A stretch of DNA of 64,000 nt, from the NCBI RefSeq assembly GCF_012163145.1, contig NZ_JAAVTX010000005.1, positions 615,188-679,187 of the forward strand, given 5' to 3'. The stretch's first letter is position 1. Every line of letters starts with the position of its first letter. Origin of the DNA: Falsiroseomonas frigidaquae (GTDB taxonomy: Bacteria; Pseudomonadota; Alphaproteobacteria; Acetobacterales; Acetobacteraceae). The notes beneath the pieces were generated by a model that was given only the letters and a program-made list of their open reading frames with translations, was not told where the DNA came from and did not search any database. The position numbers and the translations under genes are program-made. Positions 22,932 to 31,840 of the stretch are shown piece by piece.

Positions 22932-25061
22932 CTACCGCTGGGCAACCGTCTCCAGCAGCACGGCGCGGGCGCTGACGCGGATGCCCTGGGCACGGGCATC
23001 CCGCAGGGCGGCGGCCAGCGCCGGCAGATAGTCGTCCAGCGGCTCCACCACCGGGCGGGGCTGCGGGAATAGCGGGCGCTCCGAGGCGAAGACGATGATC
23101 ATGTCCGTGCCGAAGGGCTCATCCACCTGCCAGCCGGTGAAATTCGGGCCGGGCTCGCCGAGCCGCAGCCGGGCGCCGGCGGCCTGCGGTTCCGACGGCA
23201 CCAGGTGGACGATCTCGTTCGATTTCATCAGGTAGCTGACATAGAGCTGCCCGGCGCGCGGCGGCATCTGCACATCCAGCCGCAGCAGATCGCCACGCTG
23301 CAGCGGCATGGCACCGGCGATGGTGACGAGGGGCGCCTCGCCGGGGGCCGCGGCGACCTGGCGGATGGTGTCGATGGCGCCGCAATAGGGGCCTTCGAAG
23401 GCATGCAGGCGGAGCATTGCGGCGGCGGGCGGCACGCCGCGCTCGGCCAGTACACGCCGGATCTCCGCCTCCCCGCCCTGGCGCAGGATGCCGGCGATGG
23501 TCAGGCTGGTTTCGGTCGCGGTGGCTTCGAGCAGGCTGCAGGGCGCAGCCGCGGCCGCGGCGCTGGCGGCGGCGCGCAGATCCGGGCGGGGCGGCGGCGC
23601 GGGGGCTGGTGTGGGGGTGGGCGCAGGTACCGGGACGGGAGCCGGCGTCGGGGTGGGCGTCGGAACCGGGACGGGAGCCGGCGTCGGGATGGGCGCTGGA
23701 ACCGGGACGGGAGCGGGTGACGGTTCGGGCGCGGGTCGCGGCGCAGGCGTGGGTTCAGGCGCGGGCCGGGGTGTCGGGACGGGCAACACATCGGGCGTGG
23801 GAGTCGGTGCCGGCGCGGGCGTCGGGACCGCATCGGGCACAGGGGTCGGGACGGGCGCCGGCGCGGGTGTGGGCGTCGGGGCAGGCGTCGGTGCGGGCGC
23901 CGGCTGCGGTGGCGCGGGCGTCGGCGCGGGGCTCGGCACCGGGCGCGGCTCGGGCGCCTGGGCCACCTGATCCTGCGGCACCACCAGCGGCTCCGGCCGG
24001 GTCAGGATGTAGCCCGCCGCACCGGCCGCGATCAGCGCCACGCCGCCCAGCAAGGCCCATTTCAGCCCGCCGCCGGATCGCGCGGCCGGTGGCGGGGCGG
24101 GTATGGGGGCGGATGGGGCGGGCGCGGCCGGCGGGCGGGTGGCGGTGGCCAGCATCGTCGCGTCGTCCAGCCCTGGCAGCTTGCCGGCGCCGGCAAAGCC
24201 AGGCCCGGCCGGTTCCGCATTCTCCCCGGCGGCACGGATGGCCTCGGCGAAGGCGGTCGCGCTGGGAAAGCGGTCATCCGGGCGCTTCGCCAGGGCGCGG
24301 GCCACCACCGCGTCGAAACCGCGCGGCGCGCTGACGGCAAGCTGGCTCGGCGGCGGCGGTTCGGTGTTCAGCACGCGATGCATCAGCGCGCTGTAGCCGC
24401 CATCGAAGGGCTTCTCACCGGTCAGCAGCTGGTACAGCAGCACGCCGGCGGCCCAGATATCGGCCCGCGCATCCACCGGCTCGCCGCGCAATTGCTCGGG
24501 CGCCATGTAGCTCGGCGTGCCCATCACGGTGCCGACCTGGGTCATGGTCGAGCTCTCGATCCGGGCGATGCCGAAATCCGCGATCTTCACCTGCGGACCG
24601 CCGGAGGTCCCGCCGCCCTCATCAGCCGTCAGCATGATGTTGGCGGGCTTGATGTCCCGGTGCACCACGCCGCGGCCGTGCGAATAGGCCAGCGCGCCGA
24701 GGATCTGGTCCATCAGGCGGACCACCTGCGCCACCGGCAGGCGCTCGCCACGGTCCATCACGCCCTTCAGCGTGCCGCCCTCGACCAGTTCCATGACGAT
24801 CCAGGCGGTGTCGGCATTCTCGCCGTAGTCGAAGACGCCGACGATGTTGGGGTGCGACAGGCGCCCTGCGGCCTGGGCTTCCCGCCGGAAGCGGGCATGC
24901 GCCTCCCGCGCCTCCGCGTCGTCGCCGGAGGGCAGGCGCACCAGCTTCACCGCGACGCGGCGCTCGATCATGCGGTCGAAGGCGTCGATCACGGTGCCCA
25001 TGGCACCGGCCCCGAGCGTGCCGCGCGCCTCGTACTTGCCCGAAAGCTCGCTCGGCAGCAT
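22932..25061 (-). CDS. PpkA-like transmembrane Ser/Thr protein kinase
   Basis: A 709-residue Hanks-type kinase with a long periplasmic part. The cytoplasmic kinase domain is complete: Gly loop GAGAMGTV (17-24), VAVK with Lys39, HRDIKPAN (His134-Asn141), DFG (162-164) and [11 protein letters not shown] single transmembrane helix lies near 335-353. A proline/alanine/threonine repeat linker follows (about 365-500), then a C-terminal domain of about 200 residues resembling the DUF4384-type domains attached to T6SS kinases ([42 protein letters not shown]). In other T6SSs PpkA controls assembly by phosphorylating the FHA protein, which is not in this window. It is on the opposite strand to the main operon. 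Confidence 0.93.
23590..23960 (-). repeat. Proline-rich low-complexity repeat in kinase linker
   Basis: Many imperfect copies of short GGXGYCGGxxC words encode alternating PTPAP and PVPAP units in the periplasmic linker of the kinase. The repeat is in frame and of irregular period. Confidence 0.8.
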
Positions 25062-25137
25062 CAGCCGCTATCCCCCTGTCGCCGCCCACCCTTGCCGGCC
25101 CCCGCCGCGAACCATAGGGCGGGCCGCGGCTTGCAGG

Positions 25138-25160
25138 AAGCGTCAGACCCGCACGCTTCG
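25138..25160. terminator. Weak hairpin after the FkbM gene
   Basis: GAAGCGT and ACGCTTC form a 7-bp stem around a nine-base loop, 120 bases upstream of the kinase start and just before the FkbM stop region. No U-run. It may be a weak terminator; the rest of 25062-25182 shows nothing else. Confidence 0.25.
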
Positions 25161-25182
25161 GATCGGGGCTTCAGATGTGGCC

Positions 25183-26010
25183 CTATACCGGGGCGTCGCC
25201 CCGCGTCAGCAGCAGGTCGCAATGCGAAAGGCCCGGCATCTCCGCCGCCGTCACATCGGTCAGCACGCCCTGGCGTTCGATGCGCCGGCAGCGGAAGCCC
25301 AGCGCGGCGATCCAGTTGGCCAGTTCCGCCACGTCGCCGCGGGCGGCCAGCATGGCGGGGGACCATTCCATCACCACCATCAGCTTCGGCGAGCGTTCCA
25401 TGATCTGCTGCGCGCCGAGCAGCACCAGCCCTTCCGTTCCCTCCGCATCCATCCGCAGCAGGTCGAGCGCGGGCAGCTCCGCCAGCGCATCATCCAGGCG
25501 GGTGGCCGGCACGGCGAAGCTCTCGGTGTAGCTCGGCGCCGCCACCGGGATGGCCAGGTGGGCGCTGCCGGCCTGCGCCGGGTCGGCGGCGAAGTGCACG
25601 TCGCCGGGGGCGTGCAGCACGGCCACTTCGCGCAGGGTCACGCGGTCCTGGAAGCGGTTGCTGGCCAGCGTGTTGCGCAGCAGCGGCAGCACCTTGGGAT
25701 AGGGCTCGAAGGCATGGACATGGCCGGTCGGACCCACCGCCTCCCCCATCACCAGCGTGTGGAAGCCGAGGCTGGCGCCGACCTCCGCCACCTGCATCCC
25801 GGGCTTCAGGACGCGGCGCAGCAGCGCCTCCACATGCGGCTCCCAACGGCCGCTCAGGATGATGTCCGGCGTCATCCCGGCGTCGCCACCCGGCAGGAAT
25901 ATCTTGCGGCCGAAGTGGGTGAGGGCCAAACCCACCCCATTGCCCAGATAATACCAGTCGCTCCGACGGCGGAGCCGCGCACGCAGCAGGGAAAGCAACT
26001 TGTCGAGCAT
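25183..26010 (-). CDS. FkbM-family SAM methyltransferase
   Basis: A 275-residue methyltransferase of the FkbM family, which usually methylates sugar hydroxyls or lipids. ATG 26010 (MLDKLLSLLRARL) gives the family length. SAM-binding motif I is VAEVGASLGFHTLVMGEA (about 93-110), followed by VHAFEPYP, the conserved acidic motif. The family block LDLLRMDAEGTEGLVLLGA is present near residue 190. Start codon lies 46 bases from the likely start of the divergent RNA methyltransferase. No sugar-biosynthesis cluster flanks it, so the substrate is unknown. Confidence 0.9.
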   Translation of the reverse strand: MLDKLLSLLRARLRRRSDWYYLGNGVGLALTHFGRKIFLPGGDAGMTPDIILSGRWEPHVEALLRRVLKPGMQVAEVGASLGFHTLVMGEAVGPTGHVHAFEPYPKVLPLLRNTLASNRFQDRVTLREVAVLHAPGDVHFAADPAQAGSAHLAIPVAAPSYTESFAVPATRLDDALAELPALDLLRMDAEGTEGLVLLGAQQIMERSPKLMVVMEWSPAMLAARGDVAELANWIAALGFRCRRIERQGVLTDVTAAEMPGLSHCDLLLTRGDAPV

Positions 26011-26056
26011 GGAGCCCCGTCCTGGTTCGGACCCCCATCGCACCCAGCCGGCTGGG

Positions 26057-27337
26057 ATGCAACCGGTGCGGGAAATCACAATCGACCGGCTCGGCTCGGC
26101 GGGGGATGGCGTGGCGGAGACGCCGGACGGCCCCTGGTTCCTGGCCGGGACGCTGCCGGGGGAACGCATCCTGGCCCGGCCCGCCGGGCGGCGTGGCGAG
26201 GGCCAGGCGGCGGAGGTGGCGGAAATTCTCGCCGCCAGCCCGGACCGGGTGGTGCCGCCCTGCCCGCACTTCCTGGCCGAATGCGGCGCCTGCGCGCTGC
26301 AGCACTGGGCGATCCCGGCCTATGCCGCGTGGAAGCGCGCCCGGCTGGTCGATGCGCTGGAGCGCGCGGGGCAGCCGGATGTCGCCGTGGCGGAAATGGT
26401 GATCGCCGCGCCGAACACCCGGCGCCGCGCCGACCTGGCACTGAAGCGGCTGCAGGGCGGCGCCATGGCGCTGGGCTTCCACCAGCGCGGCAGCGCGGCG
26501 GTGGCGGACCTGTCCACCTGCCATGTGCTGGACCCGGCGCTGGTGGCGCTGTTCCGGCCGCTGCGCGAATTGCTGCGGCGGATGACGGCGCTGAAGCGCG
26601 AGGGCTCGGCGGTGCTGAACCTGCTGGACAGCGGGCCGGACCTGCTGCTGCGGACGGATGGCCCGCTGGATGCCTCGCAGCGCGCTATGCTGGCCGCCTT
26701 CGGCACCGCGCACGGCATTCCGCGCATTGCCTGGGCGCTGAAGGACGGCCCGGTGGAGAATGCGGCGCAGGCCGGGCCGGTCTGGCTGAACCTGTCCGGC
26801 GCCTCCGTCGCGCCGCCGCCCGGCGCCTTCCTGCAGGCGGCACCGGAGGGTGAGGCGGCGATCGTCGCGGCCGTGCTGGCCGGCCTCGCATCGCAGAAGC
26901 TGCCGGTGCGGGCGCGCATCGCGGACCTCTATGCCGGCATCGGCACGCTGTCCTTCCCGCTTTCGGCCAAGGGTCGCGTCGCGGCCTATGAGGGCGATGC
27001 GGCCGCCGTCGCCGCGCTGGATGCCGCGGCGCGCAAGGCGGGCGGCAGGGTGGAGGCGATCCGGCGCGACCTGGCCTATCGCCCGCTGCTGCCGGCGGAG
27101 CTGAACGGCTTCGGCGCCGTGGTGCTGGACCCGCCCTACAATGGCGCGGTGGAGCAGGTGGCGCAGATTACCCGCAGCAAGGTGCCGGTGGTGATCTACG
27201 TGTCCTGCAACCCGGTGGCGCTGGCGCGCGATGCGGCGGCGCTGGTGAAGGCCGGGTTCAAGGTGACCTCCGCCGTGCCGGTGGACCAGTTCCGCTGGTC
27301 GCCACATCTGGAATCGGTGGTCAGCTTCCGGCGCTGA
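26057..27337 (+). CDS. RlmD/TrmA-family 23S rRNA (uracil-C5) methyltransferase
   Basis: RNA m5U methyltransferase of the RumA group, about 426 residues. It opens with a TRAM domain (ITIDRLGSAGDGVAE) and has iron-sulfur cysteines in CPHFLAECGACALQHW. The catalytic part has FLQAAPEGEAAIVAAV, the SAM motif ADLYAGIGTLSFPL, DPPYNGAVEQV and the catalytic cysteine in YVSCNPVALARD. ATG 26057 is used because the TRAM domain begins just after; an ATG at 26009 is also in frame and would overlap the start codon of the divergent FkbM gene. A 14-bp palindrome (26043-26056) directly precedes 26057. Confidence 0.9.
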   Translation: MQPVREITIDRLGSAGDGVAETPDGPWFLAGTLPGERILARPAGRRGEGQAAEVAEILAASPDRVVPPCPHFLAECGACALQHWAIPAYAAWKRARLVDALERAGQPDVAVAEMVIAAPNTRRRADLALKRLQGGAMALGFHQRGSAAVADLSTCHVLDPALVALFRPLRELLRRMTALKREGSAVLNLLDSGPDLLLRTDGPLDASQRAMLAAFGTAHGIPRIAWALKDGPVENAAQAGPVWLNLSGASVAPPPGAFLQAAPEGEAAIVAAVLAGLASQKLPVRARIADLYAGIGTLSFPLSAKGRVAAYEGDAAAVAALDAAARKAGGRVEAIRRDLAYRPLLPAELNGFGAVVLDPPYNGAVEQVAQITRSKVPVVIYVSCNPVALARDAAALVKAGFKVTSAVPVDQFRWSPHLESVVSFRR

Positions 27338-27453
27338 ACCGCCGCGTCGGGCCGAGGCCCTGCCTATGCCCGCGACAGGCTCGGGCGCAGCGACAGGCGA
27401 GCGGGGTTCCGCTAGCCTCTCCGTGCCGCCACATGCGGACACGGGAGCCCGCC

Positions 27454-28023
27454 ATGACGACGCCGCCCAGGATACTCTCGACCGAGGAGCTCAACCACGT
27501 CAGCGGCGGCGTCTATGACGGCTTCGACGATGGCGAGCAGGACGGCACCGCGGGCGATGACAGCATGCGCGGCGGCAGCGGCCGCGACATGCTGTTCGGC
27601 CATGAGGGCCAGGACACGCTGCTCGGCGGCAGCGGCAATGATGCGATGGATGGCGGCGACGGCGCCGACCTGATGTCCGGCGGCTCCGGCGAGGACCTGA
27701 TGGAGGGCGGACGTGGCGATGGCGACTCCGACAGCCTGTTCGGCGGCGAGGACGGCGACCGCCTGTTCTGGCAGCCCGGCAACGGCAACGACTTCTTCGA
27801 CGGCGGCGATGGGCGGGACATGCTGTGGCTGACCGGCGTCGGCGTGCAGGGGCTGCTGGCCGGGCTGCAGCTGGATGACCCCTCGGTCCGGATCAACGTC
27901 AACGGCAACCAGGTCAGCTTCTCCGACCAGTTCGGCGAGCCGATCGGCGTCAGCGGCAGCGTGACCGTTGGTGGTGAGCGGCTGAGCTTTACCAGCATCG
28001 AGATCTTCACCGCGCCAGGCTGA
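27454..28023 (+). CDS. Small RTX calcium-binding protein with double-glycine leader
   Basis: A 189-residue acidic protein, ATG 27454 with CGGGAG upstream. Residues 7-19 read ILSTEELNHVSGG, matching the double-glycine leader of peptides cleaved by C39-type ABC exporters, with predicted cleavage after Gly19. The mature part (about 30-125) carries RTX-type repeats: GGSGRDMLFGHEGQD, GGSGNDAMDGGDGAD, GGSGEDLMEGG. A short non-repeat C-terminal domain follows (VRINVNGNQVSFSDQFGE). RTX proteins normally use a C-terminal signal and type I secretion, so this leader is unusual. No exporter gene is adjacent. Function unknown; secretion is inferred. Confidence 0.82.
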   Translation: MTTPPRILSTEELNHVSGGVYDGFDDGEQDGTAGDDSMRGGSGRDMLFGHEGQDTLLGGSGNDAMDGGDGADLMSGGSGEDLMEGGRGDGDSDSLFGGEDGDRLFWQPGNGNDFFDGGDGRDMLWLTGVGVQGLLAGLQLDDPSVRINVNGNQVSFSDQFGEPIGVSGSVTVGGERLSFTSIEIFTAPG

Positions 28024-28145
28024 TCCTCGGCGAGGCCAATGGGGCACGACCAGTTCCGCGAACGATTCTTGCGCCATGGGGCGACGGGGCCTTGCAACCG
28101 CAACGCCGCATCCAACCTGACGCAGGAACGAAGCGGGAGGCTTCC

Positions 28146-29135
28146 ATGGATCGCCGTCACCTGATGCTGGGCGCCGCTGGCGCCCTGGCCGCCCCGGCGC
28201 TGTCGCGCGCCTCGCCCGCCCTGGCGCAGGGCGCCCCGGCCGCGCCCGCGGCGGCTTCCCTGACCCAGCCGCCCGGCTTCTTCCGCCTGCGCATCGGCAG
28301 CCGCATCGTCACCATGCTGCATGACGGCAGCCGCGCCATTCCGCTCGCCCAGGGCTTCGTGCCCGCCACGCCGCTGGCGGAGGTGCAGCGCGTTCTGGCG
28401 GAGAGCTTCCTGCCGACCGACACCTTCCGCATCCCCTTCACCCTGACCTGCCTGGATACGCCGAACGGCCTGGTGCTGTTCGACACCGGCAATGGCCCGC
28501 AGCCGGCGGGGTCGCCCGTCGGGCTGCTCGTCGCCAATATGCGCGCGGCCGGGCTGGACCCGGCGCGGGTCACCACGGTGGTGTTCAGCCATTTCCATGG
28601 CGACCATGTCGGCGGCCTGCTCAACGCCGATGGCAGCGCCGCCTTCCCGAATGCGGAAATCGTGGTGCCCGCCACCGAATGGGCCTGGTGGACCGACACC
28701 GCCAATGAAAGCCGCAGCCCGCAGGCCCAGCGCGGCACCTTCCCGAATGTGGCGCGGCGCTTCGCCCCCTACCAAAGCAAGGTCCGCCAGGTCGCCGGCG
28801 GCGCGGAGGTGGTGCCGGGGGTCACCGCCATCTCCGCCCATGGCCATACGCCGGGCCACACCGTGTACCGGATCGCCGATGGCGCGGACCAGATGATCTT
28901 CCTGGCGGACCTGACCAACCGGCCGGAGCTGTTCGCGCGCCGCCCGGATTTCCGCGTCGCCTTCGATTTCGACGGCGAGGCTGCGGAAGCCACGCGGCGC
29001 CGGGTCTTCGACATGGTGGCGACGGACCGCATCCGCGTCAGCGGCTACCACTTCCCCTTCCCCGCCACCGGCCACATGGCGAAGGAAGGCGAGGGCTATC
29101 GCTTCGTGCCCGCCGACTGGGCCGCGTCCGTCTGA
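28146..29135 (+). CDS. Exported MBL-fold metallo-hydrolase 1
   Basis: A 329-residue metallo-beta-lactamase-fold enzyme. The N-terminus MDRRHLMLGAAGALAAPALS looks like a Tat-type signal (RR near the start, cleavage near ALAQ). The zinc motif is SHFHGDHVGG, later ligands are in AHGHTPGHT and ADLTN, and a further His is in GYHFPFPATGH. This is the pattern of the AttM/lactonase-like or alkylsulfatase-like MBL enzymes; the substrate cannot be named. An AAGCGGGAGG ribosome site precedes ATG 28146. Its paralogue follows after 11 bases. Confidence 0.9.
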   Translation: MDRRHLMLGAAGALAAPALSRASPALAQGAPAAPAAASLTQPPGFFRLRIGSRIVTMLHDGSRAIPLAQGFVPATPLAEVQRVLAESFLPTDTFRIPFTLTCLDTPNGLVLFDTGNGPQPAGSPVGLLVANMRAAGLDPARVTTVVFSHFHGDHVGGLLNADGSAAFPNAEIVVPATEWAWWTDTANESRSPQAQRGTFPNVARRFAPYQSKVRQVAGGAEVVPGVTAISAHGHTPGHTVYRIADGADQMIFLADLTNRPELFARRPDFRVAFDFDGEAAEATRRRVFDMVATDRIRVSGYHFPFPATGHMAKEGEGYRFVPADWAASV

Positions 29136-29146
29136 GGGGAATGAAC

Positions 29147-30070
29147 ATGCTCGATCGCCGCACCCTGCTGGCCGCCGGCACCGCCGCCGCGCTGGCCCCT
29201 GCCCTGCCCGCCTCGGCGCAGGCGCCCGCCGTCACCCCCGCCTTCCGCCACGTGACGGTCGGCGCGCTGCGCGCCACCGTGGTGAATGACGGTGCCGCGA
29301 CCCGGCCCGACGCCACGCGCGGCTTCGTGGTGAATGCCCAGCCGGACCAGGTGGCCGCCGCGCTGCAGGCTGCCGGCACGCCGGGCCCGGCCCTGGTGAA
29401 CCCGTACAACGTCACCATCATCCGCACCCCCGCCGGGCTGGTGGCGCTGGATGTCGGCCTCGGCACCTCGCCGGCGCTGATGGTGAACATGCGCAATGCC
29501 GGGCTGGACCCGGCGGAGGTGGTGCTGATCGCCCACACGCATTTCCACGGCGACCATATCGGCGGGCTGCTGGCCGCCGATGGCAGCGCCGCCTTCCCGA
29601 ATGCGCGTATCGCCGTGCCGGAAGGCGAGTGGAATTTCTGGATGGACCCGGGCGAGGAATCCCGTGCCAGCGAGGCGCGGCGCCCTGCCTTCGCCAATGC
29701 CCGCCGCCGCTTCGCGCCCTATCAGGGCCGCATCACCCGCTTCGCCCCGGGCGCGCAGGTGGCGCCGGGCATCACCTCCGTCGCCACGCATGGACACTCG
29801 CCGGGGCATGTTTCCTTCCTGGTGGCGGATGGCGATGCGCAGCTTCTGGTGATCGGCGATGCCATCACCACCCCGGCGCTCTTCATGGCCAATCCCGAGT
29901 GGTATCCGGTGTTCGACATGGACCCGGCGATGGCGGTGGCAACGCGCAAGCGGCTGCTGGACCAGTTGGCCACCGACCGGATCGCGGTGGTCGGCTACCA
30001 CTTCCCGATGCCGGCCACCGGCACGGTGGAGCGCGCCGGCACCGGCTACCGGCTGGTGCCGCTGGTGTGA
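29147..30070 (+). CDS. Exported MBL-fold metallo-hydrolase 2
   Basis: A 307-residue tandem paralogue of the preceding gene. ATG 29147 is six bases after GAGGGGA; the ATG at 29141 would be too close. Signal MLDRRTLLAAGTAAALAP... ends ASAQA near residue 25, again with twin arginines. Zinc ligands are in THFHGDHIGG, THGHSPGH, and GDAITTP; the final His block is GYHFPMPATG. The duplication is old, as the two differ throughout while sharing GSAAFPNA and YHFPxPATG. A hairpin follows the stop. Confidence 0.9.
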   Translation: MLDRRTLLAAGTAAALAPALPASAQAPAVTPAFRHVTVGALRATVVNDGAATRPDATRGFVVNAQPDQVAAALQAAGTPGPALVNPYNVTIIRTPAGLVALDVGLGTSPALMVNMRNAGLDPAEVVLIAHTHFHGDHIGGLLAADGSAAFPNARIAVPEGEWNFWMDPGEESRASEARRPAFANARRRFAPYQGRITRFAPGAQVAPGITSVATHGHSPGHVSFLVADGDAQLLVIGDAITTPALFMANPEWYPVFDMDPAMAVATRKRLLDQLATDRIAVVGYHFPMPATGTVERAGTGYRLVPLV

Positions 30071-31532: not shown

Positions 31533-31660
31533 ATGGTGGGAATCGCCCGATGCGGCCGGTGGGTCAATACGCCTCCGCAGCCGAACCCGCGCCTGCCGCG
31601 CTGCGTTCCACAAGCCCGCCCGGCAGCAGCATCGGGCGGCCGCAGACGGAGGAAGTCAGC

Positions 31661-31840
31661 ATGGCGAACCAGCAGTCCAACGAGGGCAAATCCGGCAGCC
31701 ACCACGGCGCCGAGGGCCAGAAGGGCGTGTCCCAGGAAACCGTGGGCGCGGGCAAGGACAAGGACCCCAACAACTTCGCCAACGATCCGGACCGGGCGGC
31801 GGAAGCCGGCCGCAAGGGCGGCCAGTCCCGCAAGGGCTGA
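31661..31840 (+). CDS. KGG-motif stress peptide (Con-10-like)
   Basis: A 59-residue hydrophilic peptide, ATG 31661 after GGAGGAAG. It shows repeated glycine/lysine/asparagine composition and the KGG motif (DPDRAAEAGRKGGQSRKG), the signature of general stress proteins related to fungal Con-10. Such proteins are intrinsically disordered and induced on desiccation or general stress. It stands alone between two minus-strand genes and almost touches the end of the PDR oxidoreductase. Confidence 0.88.
   Translation: MANQQSNEGKSGSHHGAEGQKGVSQETVGAGKDKDPNNFANDPDRAAEAGRKGGQSRKG

Follow-up and report, generated by a model that had tools for sequence, protein, structure and literature searches.

The window analysed here is a stretch of 64,000 nucleotides from Falsiroseomonas frigidaquae (contig NZ_JAAVTX010000005.1, positions 615,188 to 679,187 of the forward strand), and it contains a gene for a small RTX protein that begins with a double-glycine leader. 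We consider it likely, with a probability of about 85%, that an exporter of the NHLM clade with a C39 peptidase domain is dedicated to this protein and to other leader-cleaved, calcium-folding RTX proteins of the same genome. In the textbook division of type I secretion, active-C39 exporters handle small leader-tagged peptides and RTX proteins leave by way of an uncleaved C-terminal signal. The pairing of a double-glycine leader with RTX cargo joins what these classes keep apart. Our reading draws on sequence: the leader itself, the RTX repeats, the intact catalytic residues of the exporter, the linkage of one paralog to the exporter operon and the genome-by-genome co-occurrence of RTX family and exporter clade.

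The window gene and its product

The open reading frame at window positions 27454..28023 on the forward strand encodes an RTX protein of 189 amino acids plus stop, with the coordinates that a preliminary description of this DNA had assigned to it. The start at 27454 follows a Shine-Dalgarno-like GGGAG (27443..27447, forward strand) and is backed by the syntenic ortholog of Falsiroseomonas selenitidurans (BU-1, G087), which begins with MTTPP at the same place and has AGGAG at a similar distance. That ortholog lacks an equivalent of the alternative ATG further upstream, at 27433. The block syntenic with F. selenitidurans spans window positions 23883-29110. The two RTX proteins are identical at 142 of 189 residues, and the dN/dS between their genes is 0.35 (NG86), so the window gene is under purifying selection.

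The product consists of a leader (MTTPPRILSTEELNHVSGG, residues 1-19; 27454..27510, forward strand), followed by RTX repeats and a C-terminal region common to the paralogs. Pfam PF00353 matches the repeats in 3 stretches at E 1.2e-14. An AlphaFold model based on a six-row alignment (mean pLDDT 86.4) has a helix at residues 10-16, a low-confidence segment at 16-24 around the Gly-Gly, an RTX beta-roll at residues 28-126 (27535..27831, forward strand) and a C-terminal beta region at residues 131-186 (27844..28011, forward strand), the last partly conserved in the paralogs in the six-member alignment. Among solved structures, Foldseek's best match is to RTX block V of adenylate cyclase toxin (CyaA) in its calcium-bound form, at E 1.4e-06; the top eight matches have TM-scores of 0.3-0.4 by query length, and Foldseek therefore backs the fold class and no more. 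Pfam, AlphaFold and Foldseek agree on GGxGxDxUx repeats that form a beta-roll. The mature protein, at 17.4 kDa and pI 4.05, looks like a bare, acidic beta-roll, and a role as extracellular matrix or surface material is our guess.

Several neighbouring genes were also inspected. Downstream of the RTX gene, window positions 28146-30070 encode two adjacent proteins that by eye resemble the metallo-beta-lactamase fold (HxHGDH motif) and have signal-like N-termini. The second of them has no full counterpart in F. selenitidurans, the syntenic block ending at 29110. Positions 22932-25061, on the reverse strand, encode a protein judged by eye to be protein kinase-like, in which a long linker is rich in Pro-Ala-Pro-Thr. 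The small protein encoded at 31550-31840 contains a KGG motif (EGKSGSHHG...AGRKGGQSRKG) and resembles the stress-induced KGG-repeat proteins.

Evidence for a double-glycine leader

The preliminary description had recognized a double-glycine leader at residues 7-19 followed by RTX repeats, and the open reading frame, the PF00353 match and a leader matrix bear this out. Residues 7-19, ILSTEELNHVSGG, follow the pattern L(-12)STE-E(-8)L(-7)..V(-4)SGG, with C39 cleavage predicted after Gly19. Such a cut would leave VYDGF as the mature N-terminus, a sequence that the F. selenitidurans ortholog also has. They contain the L(-12), the hydrophobic residues at -7 and -4 and the Gly-Gly at -2/-1 that define a class 1 leader, and the consensus given in PMC6363468 and PMC8277102 is Leu(-12)-X3-Glu(-8)-Leu(-7). 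The TIGR01847 model (bacteriocin_sig) matches the same residues at 13.6 bits (E 0.081), under its 15.7 cut-off, and that model alone would therefore not settle the leader.

A leader matrix trained on 33 leaders, none of them from this genome, was scanned over 154,831 positions, comprising the window and 26 other stretches of its own genome rather than the whole genome. The window leader scored 23.8. The top 7 positions, with scores of 22.0-32.3, were six RTX leaders and the leader of a 502-aa non-RTX protein on contig C9, and the next-best position scored 17.8. RTX proteins are glycine-rich, so the motif might be a chance resemblance, and the sub-threshold TIGR01847 match of this single sequence would fit such an origin. 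A loose filter (GG with hydrophobic residues at -4 and -7) picked out 10 of 22 ordinary RTX frames, in most cases at internal sites, and the loose motif alone would therefore mislead. These 22 control frames came from 20 regions of the same genome (two were cut at the start by a region edge, and the pair from L254 could be fragments of a single gene). Their best matrix score was 17.2, at an internal site (residue 361 of 530), and the second was 11.9, as against 22.0 or more for the six leader-bearing proteins. Given this separation and the co-occurrence with an exporter described below, a chance origin of the double-glycine motif is very unlikely, to the point of being negligible.

The same features were examined in 39 leaders from the genus and its relatives. 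These had been gathered with the loose filter on GG, -7 and -4, so those columns are not independent evidence. At position -12, on which no selection was made, all 39 have L or I. When each was scored with its own genome left out of the matrix, every leader reached at least 16.8, with one overlap between leaders and controls (G087j at 16.8 against the internal site in L251 at 17.2; the next control scored 11.9). In the six-member alignment, the leader residues L13, V16, G18 and G19 do not vary.

The leader-RTX family

The source genome (G000) encodes at least six leader-bearing RTX proteins including the window protein, as found by a protein search in which the best places were read. The five further paralogs lie on C15 at 442-443 kb, C13, C12, C16 and C15 at 580 kb, and their leaders end in IDIKTLEIVVGG, IDGSDLEKVSGG, LNDQDLSHVTGG, LSEAELARVTGG and LDEADLAKVAGG. 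A profile of these six proteins (A1), applied at E 1e-22 or better to 16 genomes of the genus, returned 45 rows that represent 39 ORFs (G000 7, G080 7, G083 5, G087 10, G094 10), and the leader is present in 37 of them. Among the ORFs of other genomes, 14 were matched by the profile exclusively in columns beyond the leader, and 13 of these carry the leader. The counts cover profile matches; they exclude further frames that are not such matches, namely those with no candidate leader in L055, L070, L222 and L224 and those flagged in L053 and L220.

The two leaderless family ORFs are G000:C15:242408 (L234, best matrix score 2.3) and G094:C3:126179 (L217, 2.2). The latter (G094:C3:126179-126634) has a family-like C-terminal region and no double-glycine leader; it may have lost the leader or may use another export route.

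Together with one member each from G003 and Roseomonas sp. SXEYE001, the 37 leader-bearing ORFs of the genus make up a set of 39. These precursors have 166-460 residues and masses of 16.6-46.9 kDa, with a predicted mature cargo of 142-437 residues; neither the window protein nor the family falls within the small bacteriocin-type cargo of less than about 10 kDa. Cysteine is absent from 37 of the 39 members, and the motif W..G.G.D is found in 37 of them versus 2 of the 22 ordinary RTX frames. Pfam recognized RTX repeats and nothing else in the 14 of the 39 that were scanned.

Candidate exporters

Leader-directed export calls for a C39-domain ABC transporter, and the preliminary description had pointed to one as the partner to expect in the genome. 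Two Peptidase_C39 proteins were found, both closest to NHLM models. Each stands with an HlyD protein and a second ABC protein whose best matches are also NHLM models, and one of the two trios lies beside a leader-bearing RTX paralog. This is the trio on C15 (HlyD, C39-peptidase ABC1 and ABC2; G000:C15:443266-449665, L053:11267-17666), our candidate exporter, which is located outside the window on the same contig, approximately 193 kb from the window gene. Its operon adjoins the C15 leader-RTX gene, which is divergently transcribed. Two of its subunits score above the model cut-offs, with TIGR03794 at 248.9 bits and TIGR03796 at 898.9 bits; for the third, TIGR03797 is the best match, but its 604.4 bits lie under the cut-off of 709.4. 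The C39 domain aligns with the LahT150 structure (6mpz) at E 1.1e-43, including the Cys, His and Asp motifs, and the motifs ECGAA, HWGMNH and INDP are present in all seven of the C15-clade exporters that were examined.

The second NHLM-type trio (L058:4771-12865; G000:C9, about 599.8-607.9 kb) has only TIGR03794 over cut-off, and its C39 protein is 52% identical to that of C15. The 502-aa protein encoded beside it has the double-glycine leader WVDLDEGSLASVVGG (score 24.1), followed by a glycine-rich and then an Ala/Glu/Lys-rich region, with a weak Pfam similarity to apolipophorin-III under cut-off. It is a candidate for another large cargo of a C39 exporter, one that is not RTX. In another genus (G005), a 458-aa frame with the leader-like start ADLSDEDLGKVVGG (L071:6178-7554) lies near an NHLM-type exporter, and large unmodified cargo may be wider among NHLM-type exporters.

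An NHLP precursor was considered as the true cargo and provisionally set aside, the TIGR03793 (NHLP) model having four matches in the source genome and none over cut-off (best 31.7 versus 50.9 bits, another 31.4). Visual inspection of the ORFs listed near the C15 operon turned up no recognizable modification enzyme. A PrtD-type type I exporter is encoded at C17:319061 (668.9 bits, over cut-off).

Linkage of cargo and exporter was surveyed at the best 80 of 558 loci of exporter relatives in named genomes, several of them with short flanks. The leader-RTX gene adjoins the exporter in the three nearest loci, those of F. selenitidurans, R. rosea and Roseomonas sp. SXEYE001 (leader LPLNALDKVVGG, read by eye), and was not found at the other 77; one of the latter, L150, has RTX frames without a leader. 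Within the C15 clade, five of seven loci (G000, G087, G003, SXEYE001 and G080) have a leader-RTX gene beside the exporter, and in G083 and G094 no family member adjoins it.

Co-occurrence of the RTX family and the exporter clade

Among the 16 congeners, the A1 profile matches in five (G000, G080, G083, G087 and G094), and exporters 73-100% identical to that of C15 are found in the same five. Both the RTX family at E 1e-22 and the C15 exporter clade are absent in the other 11, six of which have no exporter match at E 1e-150. Fisher's exact test gives p = 2.3e-4 for this co-occurrence before allowing for kinship. Six carrier genomes had been predicted in advance; five held and G089 failed. This genome had first been counted as a C15-clade carrier by score, and was reassigned after the RTX search, its exporter being only 44-45% identical. 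The co-occurrence supports the leader-directed export that the preliminary description had suggested.

Two other accounts of the pattern were set aside. RTX abundance does not explain it, since each of the 11 non-carriers offered 52-346 first-look candidates, of which up to 150 were scored, and none reached E 1e-22. Shared ancestry was addressed with a TypA tree of 19 genomes, on which the trait shows no more clustering than under randomized labels: its six carriers require six changes, and every one of 500 shuffles requires as few. The tree represents one gene and is poorly resolved, with 9 of 16 inner branches open, and its well-supported branches force at least two changes.

The genus comparison also bears on which of the two trios would serve the family. 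The leader could be real and its cognate exporter the C9 trio, given that the two C39 proteins are 52% identical and that a similar leader stands beside the C9 genes on the 502-aa protein. Four congeners with the C9 type only (G086, G090, G091 and G093; 83-96% identical to the C9 protein) have no RTX family, nor has G089, in which the C9 type occurs with a third clade (44-45% to C15); G087 and G094, whose exporters belong to the C15 clade alone, hold 10 family ORFs each. The C9 trio is therefore a decidedly improbable exporter of this family.

Broader searches were shallower. Among 80 genera of the bacterial family, both traits were found in two (G000 and G003) and neither in 78, at an RTX threshold better than 1e-40 and with up to 39 candidates scored per genome, so that absence here is weaker than in the genus search. 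Class-wide, in 385 genomes, family matches of such strength and exporters of more than 53% identity were found in G000 only; with 8 or 2 candidates scored per genome, absence is again weaker than in the genus search. The class genomes G241, G361 and G407 matched at 1e-29, with no leader in the frames read (the L264 frame is cut at its start). Exporter identity to C15 is 75% in G003 and 44, 40 and 30% in the remaining three genera that gave a match. In 15 further genera the RTX matches are weaker (about 1e-18 to 1e-24), a tally made by profile strength irrespective of leaders.

Proposed route of export

From these observations we infer recognition, cleavage, a route, an outer-membrane partner and calcium-driven folding. 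The N-terminal 19 residues would be the cleavable double-glycine leader of a secreted, calcium-folding RTX beta-roll. The leader, folded into a short helix, would dock on the C15 HlyD-ABC1-ABC2 exporter at its active C39 peptidase domain, and the peptidase would cut after Gly19. The mature chain, still unfolded, would then leave by way of the exporter, HlyD and a channel in the outer membrane, and the RTX repeats would bind calcium outside and fold. Calcium folding, as Bumba et al. 2016 are said to have reported, ratchets RTX translocation. A single exporter would serve the scattered set of paralogs, at least six in the source genome.

Some observations count against this route. The window gene is about 193 kb from the exporter, 2 of 39 family ORFs are leaderless and 2 of 7 clade loci are unlinked. 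The C-terminal beta region is like that of other RTX domains, a PrtD-type system is encoded in the genome and the TIGR01847 match is under cut-off. Exporters of this kind are assigned to RiPP precursors in PMC2887384. Several of these points would suit an ordinary type I system, for example the PrtD-type exporter at C17:319061, acting on a C-terminal signal, with the leader a relic or in another role; that exporter scores over cut-off, the fold is of the CyaA RTX block V type and two family ORFs have no leader. Such a system would not account for the L or I at the unselected position -12 in 39 of 39 leaders, nor for the failure to find the family at E 1e-22 in the 11 congeners without the C15 exporter clade, and we regard it as unlikely. 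Export by the C15 trio remains our preferred reading.

Comparison with known secretion systems

The preliminary description treated C39 leaders and RTX C-terminal signals as separate classes, and so do PMC8277102, PMC4648471 and PMC8861453, in which active-C39 exporters have small leader-tagged bacteriocin-type cargo and RTX proteins have no leader and an uncleaved C-terminal signal. The cargo of active-C39 exporters is put at about 10 kDa or less in PMC8277102 and PMC4648471, and according to PMC10231218 secretion by the MccV system falls abruptly at 116 residues. PMC8277102 also mentions an RTX exporter, CyaB, in which the C39 domain has not been disabled.

The system described here resembles class 1 type I systems and PCATs (colicin V/CvaB, LahT, PCAT1) in its intact C39 motifs, with LahT150 as the closest solved relative, in a leader with the same docking residues and in its HlyD partner gene, but its cargo is RTX, with 142-437 residues after the leader, and not bacteriocin. 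The NHLM trio (TIGR03794, TIGR03796, TIGR03797) was defined by Haft et al. 2010 (PMC2887384), who link it to precursors of the NHLP type and of the related Nif11 family. As in the C15 operon, these three kinds of gene stand next to one another, and the cargo leader ends in Gly-Gly. The present case differs in that the genome has no NHLP precursor over cut-off, no modification enzyme was recognized by eye around the C15 operon and the cargo is a folded-repeat protein with almost no cysteine (2 of 39 have any).

Class 2 RTX secretion (HlyA/HlyB, CyaA/CyaB) shares the GGxGxD repeats and the beta-roll fold. It differs in having a degenerate CLD, where here an N-terminal double-glycine leader goes with a C39 domain of intact motifs, and Pfam finds RTX repeats only in our proteins (14 of 39 members scanned). 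RTX proteins of class 2/3 systems are characterized by having no N-terminal leader, and here one is present. The RTX adhesins of class 4 are known for the LapA retention module. Like the present family they are non-classical RTX proteins of type I secretion, as stated in PMC8861453, but the proteins here are small and have a double-glycine leader.

We think it probable that this is a distinct form of type I secretion, in which an exporter of the NHLM clade, a kind linked in other systems to modified peptides, is now the dedicated cleaving exporter of dispersed and diversified proteins that are pure beta-rolls, with up to 437 residues behind the leader and, within the genus, 5 to 10 genes per genome. 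A single route would combine removal of the leader with calcium-driven folding, and the exporter and its scattered cargo genes would be gained and lost together. The preliminary description had taken the route to be undescribed for this group, and the open-licence literature, which leaves most subscription journals outside, yielded in the parts searched no account of leader-bearing RTX cargo or of the route. The papers PMC3482391, PMC10986499, PMC5557850, PMC6959600 and PMC10574481 were off target or background only for such cargo.

Should the proposed route prove true, it would be a natural system that joins both classes, and the size limit on active-C39 cargo would not be set by the C39 mechanism. 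It would also make it possible to learn whether large cargo is drawn through a cleaving exporter by calcium folding, and larger proteins might leave the cell with a clean N-terminus. Orphan NHLM exporters would then be worth checking for ordinary protein cargo, and not only for modified peptides.
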